Virus record (IMG/VR): IMGVR_UViG_3300009605_000177
Coordinates: 1 to 21,929 of that record
Reading direction: 5' to 3' (one strand)
DNA from: a virus
Length of the DNA stretch: 21,929 nt
Shown here piece after piece: positions 1,806 to 14,954 of this stretch. Within the stretch, counting starts at the first letter, position 1, and the number at the start of each line of letters is the position of its first letter. The notes beneath the pieces were generated by a model. The model saw only the letters and a program-made list of their open reading frames with translations. It made no database searches and was not told the origin of the DNA. The position numbers and the translations under genes are program-made.

Positions 1806-1918
1806 CCGATACAGTCAATTACAACCAAAACAAAGTATGGGTGTTAGTCCACTTCAACACTGGACGTATAGAGGCATGGCAGGCAGAGAAGATATTAGAG
1901 GATTCTGCTAATGTTTGA
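1802..1918 (+). CDS. 38-residue hypothetical protein
   Basis: This short ORF begins with ATG at 1802, overlapping the previous stop (ATGA), and ends at 1916-1918 inside the start of the nuclease gene. GAGGA about 6 bases upstream is a plausible ribosome-binding site. The peptide (MTDTVNYNQNKVWVLVHF, then a charged helix) has no known family. The overlaps on both sides are the main support, since translation would then run without a gap from 1264 to 2852. It may simply be a coupling peptide. Confidence 0.5.
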   Translation: MTDTVNYNQNKVWVLVHFNTGRIEAWQAEKILEDSANV

Positions 1919-2852
1919 ACTACATACGAGCGATTTTGACCCTTGCCCCGCCCGCGCCGTGTTGCGTCGGCGGGGTGCTTTTGATGGTGTGGCTGGTACT
2001 GCGCTGGTTCGAGGTCTTGCGGCTCACACAGCCCTCGAAAATCTGCACAAGGATACGAGCGAATTAACGAGCGATCTAGTCCAGCACGCACTGGCTAGCA
2101 CTGTAGATATGCTTGCGAGCGAGGGAAGAGAGGCGAGCGATGCGGTCGAGCGAAATATAGGGAGCATGGCGAGCGAAATTGTGACAATGCTCGAAAGCTA
2201 CAGGAGAAGGATACTCCCATTAACGAGCAAATGGACTCTACTTGGCACTGAAGTTCCTGTGTACTGGGAATTGCGCGACGATGTTCATTTGTCAAGCCAT
2301 GTTGATGTGCTGTACATTGATGAAAACGAGCGAGCAATCTGTTGGGACTGGAAGTGGAGGAAGGACGCACTTGCTATATCTGACCTGAGCAGGAACCTGC
2401 AACTCGCGTGTTATTGGGGAGCCTTGATCGATGGTGGGCTATTTCAACTCAAGACCAACGAGCGAGCGAGCGGGTGGGATTGCTCAGGCGATGGATGGTA
2501 TAGCCTTCCCGACGGTTCGAAGGTTCCGTTGGTGTCGTGGGTTGACCTCCCCTCACTAAAGCCATACGCAAGGGCTACAATGGGACAAGATGATAGTGGA
2601 AGGGCGATTCAGTACAAGAAGGGTGACGATAGACCTGTGTGCAGGGTAATCCGTACACCAAATTTTCACCCCAAGCAACTGGGCAACATTAAAGATGCAG
2701 CACTGGTTCGAGCCGATATGATAATCAACGGAACAGCACCATATATCCCGCAGGGATGTAGCCATTGTGAATGCGAGCCGTGGTGTCCGCGATTTGACAT
2801 GGCTACGACAAGTGAGTATCATGGTGTAACAACTAAAGGAGATTCAGTATGA
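1911..2852 (+). CDS. Cas4/RecB-like PD-(D/E)XK nuclease with predicted Fe-S cluster
   Basis: The 313-residue product has the layout of Cas4/AddB-type exonucleases. Cys12 lies in DPCPARAV. A GxxxHxxLE-like helix (GLAAHTALE, His39) follows, then Glu114, Asp132 (VDVLYID) and the D-x-K pair Asp146/Lys148 in WDWKWRK. The QLACYWGAL segment at 164 fits the QxxxY motif. The C-terminal cluster CSHCECEPWC (Cys283, 286, 288, 292), together with Cys12, could hold a 4Fe-4S cluster. In phages such nucleases resect double-strand ends to feed an annealing protein, and an ERF protein is encoded just downstream. The 5' half is locally GC-rich and packed with GAGCGA motifs, unlike its neighbours. Nuclease polarity cannot be read from sequence. 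Confidence 0.75.
   Translation: MFELHTSDFDPCPARAVLRRRGAFDGVAGTALVRGLAAHTALENLHKDTSELTSDLVQHALASTVDMLASEGREASDAVERNIGSMASEIVTMLESYRRRILPLTSKWTLLGTEVPVYWELRDDVHLSSHVDVLYIDENERAICWDWKWRKDALAISDLSRNLQLACYWGALIDGGLFQLKTNERASGWDCSGDGWYSLPDGSKVPLVSWVDLPSLKPYARATMGQDDSGRAIQYKKGDDRPVCRVIRTPNFHPKQLGNIKDAALVRADMIINGTAPYIPQGCSHCECEPWCPRFDMATTSEYHGVTTKGDSV
1928..2469 (+). repeat. Cluster of ten GAGCGA motifs
   Basis: GAGCGA starts at 1928, 2057, 2069, 2117, 2135, 2148, 2171, 2328, 2460 and 2464, mostly as (A/G)CGAGCGA. They fall in more than one codon phase, giving Thr-Ser-Asp/Glu in some places and Glu-Arg in others, so protein repeats do not explain them. Elsewhere on this strand I found only four (about 3673, 3989, 6483 and 10663). 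The spacing is irregular. Confidence 0.7.
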
Positions 2853-2938: not shown

Positions 2939-3688
2939 ATGACCACAACAAAAAACAGTAAGGTAGCCACCACAAAAACCGACAATCTGGGGTGGGCAGG
3001 AATTATGCCTGCGCTACTTAAAGCACAGATAATGGTGGAAAAGGTGGAAAAGGATACACAGGGGTACCAATACAAGTACGCCACAGCAGAATCTATGTAT
3101 TTGTCTGCAAGGGCGGCACTACATGAGAATAACATTGTTGTTTTTCGAAAATCTTGTGAAATTCTAACGCACATAGACACAGAAGTAACAAAGGGCGACG
3201 TGTTGACCGCGAACTATGGTCAAAAGATGATAGTTGTGTACGTGGTGTATTGCGGACAAAGCTGGGTTGAATGCCCAACAGAATATCCCATATGTGTAAA
3301 GGGTGGGATGAGTGACAAGGCTCTAAATGCCTCGTTGACCACCTGCCTCGCATACTTCCTGAGAGATTTGCTCCTCATACCTCGCTGTGACGAGGAAGTT
3401 GACCAAAGACCAGACACAATAGCGCATTCTGGTACAAGGACCACACCAAAACCAAAGGGTTCTGGCAAGAGCAACAAGCAAACCTTCATGGCAAATGTTG
3501 GGCAATGGATAAACCGAGATATTGCCGAATCTGATACAGCCGAGGCTTGTATTATCTTGCTCAAGAAAAACGATTTGCCGGTAGACGGATCGGCTACTTC
3601 AAAGCAATTCAAAGAAATTGCTGATATTGTTTCCGGATACATCGACGAAGCTATAGAACCTGCTACCATATTGAGCGATAATGGGTAA
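2939..3688 (+). CDS. erf: ERF-family single-strand annealing protein
   Basis: The 249-residue product matches ERF-superfamily recombinases such as P22 Erf. A helical N-terminus with a Lys-rich stretch is followed by the family signature YKYATAESMY (45-54) and a region like RAALHENNIVV. A variable linker (about 150-175) leads to a C-terminal helical domain. ERF proteins form rings on single-stranded DNA and anneal complementary strands during phage recombination and end-joining. The Cas4-like nuclease gene just upstream would supply resected ends, so the two form a plausible exonuclease-annealase pair. AAGGA stands before the ATG at 2939. A terminator follows at 3782. Confidence 0.8.
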   Translation: MTTTKNSKVATTKTDNLGWAGIMPALLKAQIMVEKVEKDTQGYQYKYATAESMYLSARAALHENNIVVFRKSCEILTHIDTEVTKGDVLTANYGQKMIVVYVVYCGQSWVECPTEYPICVKGGMSDKALNASLTTCLAYFLRDLLLIPRCDEEVDQRPDTIAHSGTRTTPKPKGSGKSNKQTFMANVGQWINRDIAESDTAEACIILLKKNDLPVDGSATSKQFKEIADIVSGYIDEAIEPATILSDNG

Positions 3689-9833: not shown

Positions 9834-10970
9834 ATGAAACCGAAAATCATCGTAGGAAATTGCATAGACAAACTTAAAGAACTACCATCTGGCAGTGTCC
9901 ATTGTTGCGTTACTTCCCCGCCATATTGGGGCTTGCGTGATTACGGCGAAGATGACCAACTCGGTCTTGAAGAAACGCCAGATGCGTATGTCGAGAACAT
10001 GGTTCAAGTGTTCAGGGAAGTCCGTAGGGTTTTGCGTGACGATGGAACGCTTTGGCTGAACCTCGGCGATTCTTATGCGGGAGGAAGTAGCGGTGGCACA
10101 AAGACGCAAGGCAACCCAGAGTTCAACAAAAACAGACCCAGCCGAGAAGCAACCAAAATACCACCAAAAGCGAAACCAAAAAACCTTAAACAAAAAGACT
10201 TGGTTGGAATCCCTTGGCGCGTGGCGTTCGCATTGCAAGCCGATGGTTGGTATCTCAGACAAGACATCATCTGGCACAAGCCAAACCCGATGCCCGAATC
10301 AGTAACCGATAGATGTACCAAAGCACATGAATATATTTTCCTATTGAGTAAATCCAAGAAGTATTATTTTGATAATGAAGCGATAAAAGAAGATAGTAAG
10401 ACAGAAGGCAGTATTCATGTTCATAAAAAAGGCAATAAAGCCGATGAATATGTAAAACAAGGATTGGTTACAAGACCACACAAAAACTATGTAACACCAG
10501 AAAAAAGGAACAAACGCTCTGTTTGGAGCGTATGCCCAAAACCCTTCAGGGGCGCACATTTCGCAACATTCCCACCAGACCTAATTGAACCATGTGTTCT
10601 TGCAGGTACTTCAGAAAAAGGTTGTTGTCAAATATGCGGTTCACCTTGGGCGAGAGATGTTGAGAGCGAAAGAAAACCAACTCGCCCCAATTTGACATCT
10701 AAGGTTGAGGGATTGCCTAGCGAGGTTGTTGGAAACAGAGACACAGAGAGGCATGTTACAACCACAAAGACTGTAGGATGGAGTCCTAGTTGCTCTTGTG
10801 GTGCTGATATCATTCCTTGTACTGTACTTGACCCGTTCCTTGGTTCGGGAACAACGCTTACTGTTGGACTGAAACACGGAAGGAACGGCATCGGGATTGA
10901 ATTGAATCCTGAATATGCTAAACTTGCAGAGAAGCGTATAGAAGATAATCAAAGTTTGTTTACCGTGTGA
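9834..10970 (+). CDS. Beta-class DNA methyltransferase (N4-cytosine or N6-adenine)
   Basis: The 378-residue product has the circularly permuted order typical of PF01555 enzymes: the catalytic SPPYW (28-32) comes first and the AdoMet-binding DPFLGSGTT (333-341) comes late. SPPYW is frequent in both m4C and m6A enzymes of this class, so the base cannot be decided. An inserted segment carries CCQIC (264-268) and CSC (320-322), a possible zinc cluster also seen in some phage members. No restriction enzyme gene is adjacent, so it is an orphan phage methyltransferase, plausibly protecting the genome from host restriction. GAGG shortly before the ATG serves as ribosome-binding site. Confidence 0.85.
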   Translation: MKPKIIVGNCIDKLKELPSGSVHCCVTSPPYWGLRDYGEDDQLGLEETPDAYVENMVQVFREVRRVLRDDGTLWLNLGDSYAGGSSGGTKTQGNPEFNKNRPSREATKIPPKAKPKNLKQKDLVGIPWRVAFALQADGWYLRQDIIWHKPNPMPESVTDRCTKAHEYIFLLSKSKKYYFDNEAIKEDSKTEGSIHVHKKGNKADEYVKQGLVTRPHKNYVTPEKRNKRSVWSVCPKPFRGAHFATFPPDLIEPCVLAGTSEKGCCQICGSPWARDVESERKPTRPNLTSKVEGLPSEVVGNRDTERHVTTTKTVGWSPSCSCGADIIPCTVLDPFLGSGTTLTVGLKHGRNGIGIELNPEYAKLAEKRIEDNQSLFTV

Positions 10971-10985
10971 CGCAAAGGAGAACCA

Positions 10986-11216
10986 GTGACAAAGAAAACA
11001 AAACATCCAATGCTCGGCAAGCAAGTTCGTGTATTCACAAGCGATGAAGAACTGGAGTCCTACTACCACCTTGGCGATGCTACGCTAATTCATATCTGCG
11101 ACAGTCACATCGTTGTCAAGATTGTCGAAGATGGTGGTGATAGTTTCCTTGCGATTCACCCGTGGCATGACATCAAGACGATAGATACACTGTCCGAAAT
11201 CGTTGGAGGACAATAA
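10986..11216 (+). CDS. Hypothetical protein between methyltransferase genes
   Basis: The 76-residue product starts with GTG at 10986, preceded by AAAGGAGA at a good distance. It appears to be a small mixed alpha/beta protein with no recognised motif. Its last bases hold the GGAGG site used by the next (decayed) methyltransferase frame. No function is assigned. Confidence 0.6.
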   Translation: MTKKTKHPMLGKQVRVFTSDEELESYYHLGDATLIHICDSHIVVKIVEDGGDSFLAIHPWHDIKTIDTLSEIVGGQ

Positions 11217-11217
11217 T

Positions 11218-11526
11218 GTGGATACTACCCAAACAATTACTCACCTCTCACTATGTGCCGGATACGGAGGCATCGACCTTGGACTTAGAAGCGTTTTGCC
11301 AAGCAGACCAGAAGAAGATCAACACTACTGGGAATACCCAAGAACAATCGGAAGTGAGGAAGTTATCACCGCTATGGGTGGCTCAGCTCATGGGATTGCC
11401 GATGGCGAACTGGTGCGTAATCAACGTATCGATTCACTGCGCGCCCTTGGAAACGGAGTTGTCCCTGCAACTGCTGCAAGGGCTTTCGTTATACTTATGG
11501 ACAGGTTAGGAGGAGGTACACTGTGA
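11218..11526 (+). pseudogene. Remnant of C5-cytosine DNA methyltransferase
   Basis: The reading frame from GTG 11218 (GGAGG at 11205-11209) opens with THLSLCAGYGGIDLGL, the AdoMet-binding motif I of Dcm-type enzymes, and ends with LRALGNGVVPATAARAF, the C-terminal motif X. The catalytic Pro-Cys motif IV, motifs VI-VIII and the target-recognition region are missing. Between about 11300 and 11410 the family-like text continues in another frame (KLSPLWVAQLMGLPMANW, read from ATG 11216), then returns to the first frame exactly at the 100-base repeat. A large internal deletion plus two frame changes make it inactive as a methyltransferase. The last 100 coding bases are duplicated downstream. Confidence 0.75.
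11411..11510 (+). repeat. 100-base direct repeat, copy 1
   Basis: This stretch recurs at 12056-12155 with one mismatch (A at 11478, T at 12123), giving 99 of 100 identical at an offset of 645. It encodes the C-terminal motif X region of a C5 methyltransferase. Identity stops sharply on both sides. Copy 1 is followed by AGGAGGAGG, the ribosome-binding site of the XF1762-like gene. Confidence 0.95.
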
Positions 11527-12065
11527 GTTTGCGAATAATTCCGCTAGACCTAAAAGAGGCAAATGCTATAGTTCAACGATTCCATCGACACCATAAACCG
11601 GCGGTAGGTCATCGTTTTTCTTTAGGGGTTATTGATGAGACGGGTAAATTATTAGGGGCAGCGATAGCGGGTCGTCCTATTGCGCGACTCTCGGACCAAA
11701 AGTTCATTTTGGAAATAACGAGAGTGGCAACAGACGGTACTAAGAATGCGTGCAGTATTTTGTTGGGAGCGATTGCAAAGTCTGCCAGATGTATGGGATA
11801 TAGCCTTGTCCAAACTACAACATTGCAGAGGGAGTCTGGGTCAAGTCTGAAAGCGGTGGGCTGGAAATGGCAGAACATAAATACTGATGGAACTGGGTGG
11901 GATAGTAGAAAGGGGCGCAATGTAGATTGCAAGAACGATTTGAAAGTCAGATGGTTCTGTGAATTGAGCAGTAAACCTGATTTACAGGAAATACCTACAC
12001 ACAAAAGACTGTATAAAGAAGAAAGTTTCCAGTTGTTTGGAGACGATGGAGGACATGGTGCGTAA
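11523..12065 (+). CDS. XF1762-family-like phage protein, possible GNAT/Mom-type fold
   Basis: The 180-residue product resembles the XF1762 family of phage proteins. EANAIVQRFHRHHKPAVGHR near the N-terminus is followed by GVIDETGKLLGAAIAGRP, ITRVATDGTKNACSILLGA and a late ESGSSLKAVGWKW. The layout (beta hairpin, then a helix after NACS, then AVGW) fits an acyltransferase-like fold, and similar proteins have been compared with Mom DNA-modification enzymes; that link is from memory and uncertain. The GTG start at 11523 overlaps the previous stop and has a strong AGGAGGAGG site. The gene fills the space between the two 100-base repeats, and its own stop codon lies in copy 2. Confidence 0.7.
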   Translation: MSLRIIPLDLKEANAIVQRFHRHHKPAVGHRFSLGVIDETGKLLGAAIAGRPIARLSDQKFILEITRVATDGTKNACSILLGAIAKSARCMGYSLVQTTTLQRESGSSLKAVGWKWQNINTDGTGWDSRKGRNVDCKNDLKVRWFCELSSKPDLQEIPTHKRLYKEESFQLFGDDGGHGA

Positions 12066-12165
12066 TCAACGTATCGATTCACTGCGCGCCCTTGGAAACG
12101 GAGTTGTCCCTGCAACTGCTGCTAGGGCTTTCGTTATACTTATGGACAGGTTAGGCGAATTATGA
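12055..12165 (+). pseudogene. C-terminal fragment of C5-cytosine methyltransferase
   Basis: From ATG 12055 a 36-residue frame repeats the motif X segment (RIDSLRALGNGVVP) and ends LGEL at a TGA that overlaps the next ATG (ATGA). That clean junction suggests that this is the original 3' end of the methyltransferase gene, while copy 1 is the displaced one. GGAGG lies only two bases before the ATG, so translation as a peptide is doubtful. Confidence 0.6.
12056..12155 (+). repeat. 100-base direct repeat, copy 2
   Basis: This is the second copy of the repeat at 11411-11510. It begins inside the last codons of the XF1762-like gene, whose GCG TAA end is made by repeat bases, and it ends ten bases before the stop of the methyltransferase fragment. 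Confidence 0.95.
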
Positions 12166-12566
12166 CTACTTCATACACAATCGTACTCGAATACCAGTTC
12201 GAATCTCTTAACATAACGATGAGGCAACACTGGGCTGTACGCAAAAAACGACAAGAAGAACTATTTACCGCAGTAGAATGTGCCGCAGAACAGCCAATAC
12301 CTACATTCAAGGGTAAATCAGTTGTTACAATTACGAGACAGTGGGGAAAACGGGGTCGTGCGTTTGACCCAGACAACCTTGTAGGTTCAGTAAAGCCCCT
12401 TATAGATTGCCTAAAAAAACCAAAAGGCAGACAAAAGAGTGGTCTGGGTATAATTCCAGACGATACACCAGAAGATATTGAACTACGAGTAAAACAAGAA
12501 AAATCGCCCGATGGCGTTCATCGGGCTATAATTGAAATAGATACACAAGGAACAAAAGATGTCTGA
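12162..12566 (+). CDS. RusA-like Holliday junction resolvase
   Basis: The 134-residue product has the length and signature of RusA endonucleases. FDPDNL (68-73) carries the conserved acidic pair, followed by KPLIDCL (78-84) and GIIPDD (96-101), which completes the metal site. RusA dimers cut four-way junctions made during recombination and replication. That fits with the ERF protein, the Cas4-like nuclease and the SF2 helicase in the same arm, and would clear branches before packaging. The ATG overlaps the stop of the methyltransferase fragment. The upstream ribosome-binding site is weak, so translation may depend on coupling. Confidence 0.82.
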   Translation: MTTSYTIVLEYQFESLNITMRQHWAVRKKRQEELFTAVECAAEQPIPTFKGKSVVTITRQWGKRGRAFDPDNLVGSVKPLIDCLKKPKGRQKSGLGIIPDDTPEDIELRVKQEKSPDGVHRAIIEIDTQGTKDV

Positions 12567-13371
12567 AGAAAACAACAATCAGGAAACATCAGAGGCGTTT
12601 ACAGAACTCATGCAAGAATTGCCCGAAGAACTCCGCAACAACCCATCATTGAAAGACTTTAAGAACTTTGAGGGAATGGCAAAATCACACATATCTGCAC
12701 AAAAAATGGTCGGTGCAGATAAAATCGTTCTGCCACCAAAAGACGCGACCGACGAAGAGCGCAGTGATTTCTTCAACAAACTTGGCAGACCAGAACAACC
12801 CGATGGATACGAGGCACCTACAGAAAACATGCCAGATGTAGAACTTGACAAAGATATGCTAAGTGGATTCTTTGACGAGGCGCACCGCATAGGCTTAAAC
12901 AAACAACAGGCAGCAGCACTCGTTAGATGGCAAGCTCAACAATCCGACAATTTTGTAGCTGAGTCCGTGCAAAACCAAGAAGCGGGTCTTGAGAAAGCCA
13001 CTGCAGCAATGCGAAAAGAGTTTGGCAGGTCATACGACCAGAAGATGGAGATGGCAACTACGGCACTCAAGCAATTTGGTGGCGACGAACTCGTTGAACT
13101 CCTCAACTCCACAGGATTAGGCAATGAGCCAGCAATCATCAAGGCGTTTGCTAACGTGGGTAAGGCTATTGCAAACGATGAGATCGTTGGCGGTGGCGGG
13201 CGACAGGGATTCCTGATGTCCCCATCAGAAGCGAAACAAGAAATCGCACAGAAAAAACAAGATCCGAATTTCATGAAGGCGTATCAAGAACGTGACCATG
13301 TAGGTCATAAAGAGGCAGTTGCAGATATGCAAAAACTGTTTGCGTCTGCGTACCCAGCAGAGGAAGCGTGA
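12559..13371 (+). CDS. Putative scaffolding / capsid assembly protein
   Basis: The 270-residue product is acidic, helical and low in aromatic residues. Its LPEELRNNPSLKDFKN segment, AKSHISAQKMVGAD and NKLGRPEQPDGYE are typical of phage proteins annotated as scaffolding or capsid assembly proteins. Such proteins template procapsid shells and then leave. It overlaps the RusA gene by eight bases, so it is tied to the early operon on the + strand, whereas the connector and terminase are on the - strand. The major capsid gene is not in the window. An internal-virion or non-structural role cannot be excluded. Confidence 0.6.
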   Translation: MSEENNNQETSEAFTELMQELPEELRNNPSLKDFKNFEGMAKSHISAQKMVGADKIVLPPKDATDEERSDFFNKLGRPEQPDGYEAPTENMPDVELDKDMLSGFFDEAHRIGLNKQQAAALVRWQAQQSDNFVAESVQNQEAGLEKATAAMRKEFGRSYDQKMEMATTALKQFGGDELVELLNSTGLGNEPAIIKAFANVGKAIANDEIVGGGGRQGFLMSPSEAKQEIAQKKQDPNFMKAYQERDHVGHKEAVADMQKLFASAYPAEEA

Positions 13372-14078: not shown

Positions 14079-14954
14079 CTATTTTGCTCTAACTATTTCC
14101 CAACCAATTTCGTTGTCTGTGGAGTTCTTTACAAAAAACTTGAGCCACGCTGCACCCAGACCCTTCGGTGGTCCGCCCCTCTCAACGTGCCAACCGTCAA
14201 ACCCATCCACATATTCGTCCTTATATGTTCCACAACGCACATGTGTAACAGAATCCATGCCAACACGACCACTTTGAAACAACTTCTCTCTTGCAATTTC
14301 TAAAATCCAATGATCGTGCGTATGACCACTCGCAATGATATTCGCCTGTGGGTATATAACCGCCATCCTGTTTGTCTGAATAACGCCGCGCGTCACCGGT
14401 CCACCACCACCAGACCCATGAAAATACTTCAGGTTGCATTGTCTCTTAGACCCTTGGCAACGCACTACGAACCGTACCCATCCCCCATATCCGCCAGAAA
14501 AAACCTTTGTTTTTGTTATGGTCGAAATTCGCTCGCACGTTCGCTCACACAAATCTGTCTCATGTCTCTTTTCAATAGAGGTCTCGTGATTACCCTTGCC
14601 GATTACAACAAAGTTTTCGGCATAGGGTGCGTAAAACTCTGAGGCACAGTTAACTAGCGAATCAAGATACATGCCCTCTTGTTGTTCGGGACGACAAGCA
14701 TCAAGGCTTGACCTCTTGTCCCATTTCCCCTGCATGGCACAGTGCATATCACCGATGTCTATAATCCCTGCGCCACGCTTCTTTGCCTCGTCAAGGTGTT
14801 TTAGTTCTAGTTCCTGATCTGTGTGCGCATTGTCATGGTGCCTATCCGACGACAGCAAAAACCACTGTTCCCACTTAACGCCCGTGGTTTTCATGCGTAC
14901 AGTGTGAACATTTCTCGCCTGCTGGGTAACTGTCCAGTTTATTTTAGAGACCAC
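14079..14954 (-). CDS. Calcineurin-like metallophosphoesterase
   Basis: The 291-residue product has the metallophosphoesterase motif series: SDRHHDN (36-42), GDMH (68-71), GNHE (121-124), HGSGG (179-183) and GHTHDHW (210-216). Together these bind two metals. Motif I has an extra residue (D-R-H instead of D-x-H is normal; a second His follows). Substrates of such phage enzymes are unknown; DNA end processing and nucleotide hydrolysis are the usual guesses. The start is GTG at 14954, directly after the stop of the small membrane gene, with no strong ribosome-binding site, so coupling is likely. It is the last gene of the late arm. Confidence 0.8.
   Translation of the reverse strand: MVSKINWTVTQQARNVHTVRMKTTGVKWEQWFLLSSDRHHDNAHTDQELELKHLDEAKKRGAGIIDIGDMHCAMQGKWDKRSSLDACRPEQQEGMYLDSLVNCASEFYAPYAENFVVIGKGNHETSIEKRHETDLCERTCERISTITKTKVFSGGYGGWVRFVVRCQGSKRQCNLKYFHGSGGGGPVTRGVIQTNRMAVIYPQANIIASGHTHDHWILEIAREKLFQSGRVGMDSVTHVRCGTYKDEYVDGFDGWHVERGGPPKGLGAAWLKFFVKNSTDNEIGWEIVRAK

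Follow-up and report, generated by a model that had tools for sequence, protein, structure and literature searches.

A putative recombination scar in an acquired phage DNA-modification block, and a candidate class of C5 methyltransferases encoded in overlapping frames

A doubled methyltransferase end

Why does the motif X end of a C5 methyltransferase (dcm) gene stand twice in a phage genome, once on each side of another gene? The question is raised by the window analysed here, an entire IMG/VR virus record of 21,929 bases, in which two direct repeats are located on the + strand at positions 11411..11510 (copy 1) and 12056..12155 (copy 2). The copies are identical at 99 of 100 positions, lie 645 bases apart from start to start and differ by an A in copy 1 and a T in copy 2. 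A preliminary description of this DNA had given their coordinates and length exactly, and had also recognised that both encode methyltransferase motif X (RIDSLRALGNGVVPATAARAFVILMDRLG). A 100-base repeat at 99% identity is not a product of chance; no other direct repeat in the window exceeds 27 nt. Two pairs of short direct repeats of 26-27 bases (92-93% identity) can be observed in the early region, at 846-871/1206-1231 and 4190-4216/4267-4293. We read the locus, with a probability of roughly 0.62, as a scar left by recombination in a DNA-modification block that the phage acquired, ordinary in kind, as a case of phage gene shuffling, and informative in detail.

The two copies and the A/T difference between them recur in three IMG/VR sister contigs (L001, L002 and L003/L084), which share 99.8-99.9% identity with the window across 7-10 kb and differ from it at 6-11 positions, none of which is found between 11000 and 12200. 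The shared layout and copy-specific base make a one-off or collapsed assembly error unlikely, for contigs whose samples may be related rather than independent. Within IMG/VR, the motif DNA is carried only by these three contigs and, as a single copy, by L094 and L095, while no variants with zero, one or two of the 645-bp units were found. A nucleotide search of cultured phages with the region 10950-12600 likewise returned no match.

The gene between the copies

One complete gene is located between the repeats (11523..12065, + strand), as first described, with a GTG start, its own ribosome-binding site (AGGAGG, 11511..11516) and a stop codon that falls within copy 2. Its 180-amino acid product had been likened to XF1762, an assignment borne out by the NCBIfam family NF045478 (150 bits; cut-off: 50) and by PHROG 1384, 'Mom-like DNA modification protein' (e-value: 4e-28). 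The match to the Pfam Mom family (PF25680) reaches 23.5 bits and lies below the curated cut-off of 27.1, and the gene is therefore assigned to XF1762/PHROG 1384 and not to Pfam Mom proper. All residues that are invariant in 36 family members are retained. The AlphaFold2 model (pLDDT 84) takes a GNAT fold like that of the Mom protein of phage Mu, with which it superimposes at Z 14.9 over 145 residues and 2.4 A (8bv8), a score tied with those of other GNATs. The catalytic residue of phage Mu Mom is Ser124.

The likeness to Mu Mom thus consists of family profiles, conserved residues and a predicted fold for which 8bv8 is among the best matches. The window protein differs in that PDB sequence searches, with the protein and with the family alignment, gave no true match, in the Pfam score below cut-off, and in that no regulator gene was identified for it. 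Judged from profiles and model, 11523..12065 is an intact gene and probably encodes a Mom-type DNA-modifying enzyme, with a probable role in anti-restriction.

A chimeric methyltransferase remnant

The gene ending in copy 1 is broken, as the preliminary description had recognised: the catalytic core is gone, while motifs I and X are left. The broken METHYLTRANSFERASE is a 107-amino acid ORF (11203-11526) that opens at TTG 11203, with a likely start at GTG 11218, such that the remnant occupies 11218..11526 (+ strand) in the main (alpha) frame by comparison with the intact dcm gene of L094. Amino acids 2-30 match PHROG 363 (motif I) and are joined in frame to a C-terminal segment with motif X. 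Motifs IV (PCQ) and VI (ENV), which a functional C5 methyltransferase would have, are absent from the translation, and PF00145, which matches the intact relatives, does not match the remnant. The product would be catalytically dead, and may at most serve as a translated leader for the mom gene. A second ORF of 97 amino acids overlaps it in the +1 frame (11216..11509, + strand) with the motif IX-like sequence KLSPLWVAQLMGLP, and appears to be the remnant of a second overlapping frame.

The remnant resembles different relatives along its length. Its first 92 bases are identical to L094 at 88/92 positions and to L086 at 64/89, the next 120 bases, forming the left flank of the repeat, agree with L086 at 104/120 (87%) and with L094 at 90/120 (75%), and the repeat itself agrees with L094 at 94/100 and with L086 at 64/100. 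At sites informative between the two relatives, the L086:L094 ratio is 13:5 to the left of the repeat and 1:31 inside it (Fisher's test, p 3e-7, which counts linked sites as independent). Similarity thus switches from one relative to the other, and the alignments indicate a chimeric remnant drawn from two dcm lineages, with an L094-like start, an L086-like piece (11306..11397, + strand) and an L094-like motif X.

The first joint coincides with the microhomology CCAAGCA (11299..11305, + strand), where an L094-like 5′ part meets an L086-like 3′ part in a preserved reading frame; CCAAGC(A) is found both in the 5′ part of the L094 gene and in the 3′ part of the L086 gene. A second joint is placed near 11398, immediately ahead of the repeat; the L094-like tract that includes copy 1 apparently begins about 10-15 bp before the repeat, in a stretch with few informative sites. 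The proposal that the methyltransferase core was replaced through homology at motif X does not hold, as the core was lost at CCAAGCA, ~105 bp upstream of copy 1. What stands of it is that the motif X segment took part in a rearrangement. Two simpler schemes were rejected: an intragenic deletion of a single dcm gene, as the pieces match different relatives, and insertion of the mom gene where the core was lost, as the two joints are ~105 bp apart.

What the two copies share

Copy 2 bears the T that is shared with L094 and L095, while the A of copy 1 is new. Furthermore, both copies have GTT where L086, L089, L090, L094 and L095 all have GTA; read in the +1 frame, GTA forms the TAG stop of the overlapping ORF, and this stop is lost in both copies. 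Two long-separated functional genes are not expected to share a stop-loss change. As such, the copies most likely descended from one already altered dcm gene, either through a duplication or through recombination with a closely related sister.

Copy 1 ends in GTGA (11523-11526), in which the dcm stop overlaps the GTG start of the Mom-like gene, with AGGAGG six bases before it, while downstream of copy 2 the junction is ATGA (12162-12165), which overlaps the start of a RusA-like gene. Copy 2 had been proposed as the original 3′ end and copy 1 as a displaced end. The ATGA junction is indeed present, but copy 1 also has a natural-looking junction in GTGA and is not obviously displaced; the right-hand ends of both copies look functional. 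A 39-amino acid ORF (12046..12165, + strand) runs through copy 2 in the frame of motif X, and its stop overlaps the rusA start. Directly before copy 2, at 12048..12055 (+ strand), is the sequence GGAGGACA, which occurs in the window only here and at 11205, before the dcm start. This is suggestive, and hints that the occurrence at 12048 may be a trace of the 5′ end of a deleted second dcm gene.

The locus in related contigs

The helicase, primase, rusA-like and scaffold genes are common to the window, L086, L089 and L090. In these three contigs a dcm gene is located directly after the helicase gene, although that of L090 is frameshifted, while rusA follows the primase gene or a 79-amino acid gene without a modification block; L088 likewise has no block before rusA. 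In L090 (2107-3120), the ORF in the frame +1 to the N-terminal part of dcm continues into what is the main frame for the C-terminal part and motif X, and this gene is probably a broken copy. In the window, the next gene follows directly after the helicase gene, and the L086-type dcm is absent from the position it normally occupies.

Between the 79-amino acid gene and rusA, the window harbors a 2.3-kb block comprising an N6/N4-type methyltransferase gene, a 76-amino acid ORF, the dcm remnant, the Mom-like gene and copy 2. The first gene of this inserted block (9834..10970, + strand) encodes a 378-amino acid N6/N4-type DNA methyltransferase (PF01555, e-value: 3e-48; PHROG 67, e-value: 4e-78) and is absent from seven related contigs (L085, L086, L088, L089, L090, L094 and L095). 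The 76-amino acid ORF (10986..11216, + strand) has relatives only in the sister contigs, and none beyond these that would point to a donor. Among 26 contigs, the mom gene was found only in a sister contig. The block is followed by the rusA-like gene (12162..12566, + strand), predicted to encode a Holliday junction resolvase on the basis of a weak profile match (PHROG 4632, E 0.0075) and a DPDN motif, with relatives of 69-73% amino acid identity in L085-L090. Further downstream, a DNA repair exonuclease-like gene (PHROG 7339; 14079-14954, − strand) is located where the genes switch to the opposite strand.

The position of copy 2 beside rusA had been taken as ancestral. This is contradicted by L086, L088, L089 and L090, which have no dcm gene between the primase/79-amino acid gene region and rusA, such that an ancestral dcm-rusA adjacency was not seen in any of the four. 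A dcm gene does stand upstream of and near a mom gene in L032, L039, L047, L052 and L077, and in L032 the order is dcm, N6/N4 gene, mom; the dcm, N6/N4 and mom gene types thus keep company. The best DNA relative found for the window's N6/N4 gene is that of L032, directly before mom, at 76% nucleotide identity over 194 bases. A recurrent cassette with a doubled motif X was sought and not observed within 6 kb at the other loci compared. The features of a mobile cassette or insertion element with target duplication are not seen: the 645-bp unit contains no recombinase gene, and those loci gave no second case of a doubled motif X.

Origin of the locus

Under the scar reading, an L094-type and an L086-type dcm gene would have recombined at short homologies. 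We further infer a recombination between a dcm gene followed by mom and a dcm end that shared its recent ancestry, after which mom was flanked by a dcm end on either side; of the joints made in this exchange between dcm genes, one would most likely have formed at homology and the other at an almost random position. The joining was probably carried out by a phage-encoded Erf-like annealing protein together with an exonuclease and the RusA-like resolvase. Candidates for the first two are encoded at 2939..3688 (+ strand; PHROG 155, e-value: 2e-9; PF04404, 22.0 bits, below the cut-off of 25), an Erf-like single-strand annealing protein, and at 1911..2852 (+ strand), a PD-(D/E)XK exonuclease (PF12705, e-value: 4e-15; PHROG 1218). 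Protection of the phage DNA would now probably fall to the Mom-like enzyme and the N6/N4 methyltransferase.

A process that pairs homology at one end with illegitimate joining at the opposite end has been described (PMC3240628), and relaxed fidelity is known for the Rad52-like recombinase of phage lambda (PMC5928155), with relaxed recombination linked to phage mosaicism by De Paepe 2014, as cited in PMC5928155. The window agrees with this mosaicism in its short-homology joints between diverged relatives, in the functional neighbour left in place and in the presence of a phage-encoded annealing protein. It differs in keeping a duplicated gene tail that flanks an acquired gene, and the process is deduced here from sequence. 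No intermediate or donor phage was found for the scar, and the order of events is therefore conjectural. Against the scar reading, dcm stands directly before this rusA in no relative, and pure decay would not call for both remnant frames to have stayed open. The L094-like tract of copy 1 to the left of the repeat fits neither a simple duplication nor a simple conversion perfectly.

A tandem duplication within one genome is an unlikely but serious competitor, in which an ancestor with mom beside dcm doubled this region at short homologies, through slippage or unequal crossing-over, and subsequently lost the dcm cores and one mom gene by deletion, leaving two tails. The derived base that is common to both copies and absent from five close relatives, pointing to a recent common origin, is accommodated well, as is the restriction of GGAGGACA to the start of the first dcm gene and the edge of copy 2, consistent with the former presence of a second dcm 5′ end. 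Duplication would, however, require three or more deletions, has left no trace of a second mom gene, and has to contend with right-hand neighbours that differ between the copies and both look natural.

Far less probable is that the repeats are kept because the mom cassette can be reversibly lost and gained in the population. The length and 99% identity of the repeats should permit recombination, for which the phage has genes, but all four contigs have one mom gene and two repeats, and the lack of any other copy number in IMG/VR gives the idea of a come-and-go cassette no support. Similarly, we give very little credence to a functional split methyltransferase, assembled from the remnant, the +1-frame peptide and the 39-amino acid motif X peptide together with another subunit: both remnant frames and the 39-amino acid ORF are open with plausible starts, and two-polypeptide C5 enzymes are known (PMC3404938), yet the remnant lacks the PCQ and ENV catalytic motifs and any PF00145 match, and the L086-type dcm is gone from its place after the helicase gene. 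An assembly artefact from collapsed or misjoined strain variants, to which metagenomic contigs and a mosaic dcm might point, is highly improbable in view of four contigs, perhaps not from independent samples, that share the structure and the copy-specific base while differing elsewhere.

The recombination scar offers a base-resolution view of a phage DNA-modification locus being rebuilt, in which one modification gene decays via joints between diverged relatives and an unrelated anti-restriction type takes over.

Overlapping frames in related dcm genes

The more surprising observation is a class of methyltransferase genes in overlapping frames, to which the open +1 frame of the remnant would belong. 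The +1 frame of dcm stays open across 429, 412 and 370 codons in intact relatives, an openness matched by 1, 0 and 0 of 2000 synonymous-codon permutations, respectively. Among 52 related phage dcm genes, whose mutual relatedness means that they are not independent samples, 50 have a second (+1) open frame of nearly full length; +1 openness falls within the top 5% of permutations in 50 (top 1% in 45) and is borderline or above 1% in five of the 52, while the +2 frame reaches the top 5% in two. The 52 loci were picked by their main frame, and the second frame was thus not selected for. Examples among the 52 genes are the overlapping ORFs L094:169-1458 over L094:171-1523, L086:2692-3930 and a further case in L089. 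In L094, L095, L086, L032 and L047, the +1-frame product has a match in PHROG 1008, a family likewise annotated as DNA methyltransferase. In the N-terminal part, amino acid conservation of the +1 frame exceeds that of the +2 frame by only a small margin, which suggests that the second protein may be under loose constraint there.

The motifs are divided between the frames. Motif IX is found in the +1 frame in 48/52 genes and in the main frame in none of the 52, while motif X is found in the main frame in 49/52 and in the +1 frame in none (0/52). In the candidate two-subunit class, the +1 frame holds motif IX and probably the recognition region. We consider it rather probable that these genes represent a widespread class of phage C5 methyltransferases, with two subunits in frames that overlap over almost the entire gene and the motif X end as an exchange point, and that in the window both subunits were destroyed at once and a Mom-type gene was left. 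If the exchange reading is true, the motif X end is where lineages swap two-subunit dcm genes. A search of a limited literature collection found no paper describing overlapping-frame phage C5 methyltransferases. A second open frame that holds the missing motif IX implies that many dcm genes may be annotated as one protein although they encode two, or in the wrong frame.

A precedent is found in M.EcoHK31I, for which motif IX alone is described as residing on the smaller polypeptide (PMC3404938). The intact relatives are organised likewise: one frame holds the catalytic motifs together with motif X, while motif IX is confined to the overlapping +1 frame. The window, in contrast, has both subunits truncated, and the phage pair is read as a candidate from its sequence. 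A further departure from M.EcoHK31I is seen in L032 and L047, which have motif X in the second frame. In these two genes (L032:3234-4104 and L047:3998-5000), the main frame stops once the catalytic part is complete, and the second frame holds motif IX as well as motif X, such that motif X has switched frame relative to the relatives of the window.
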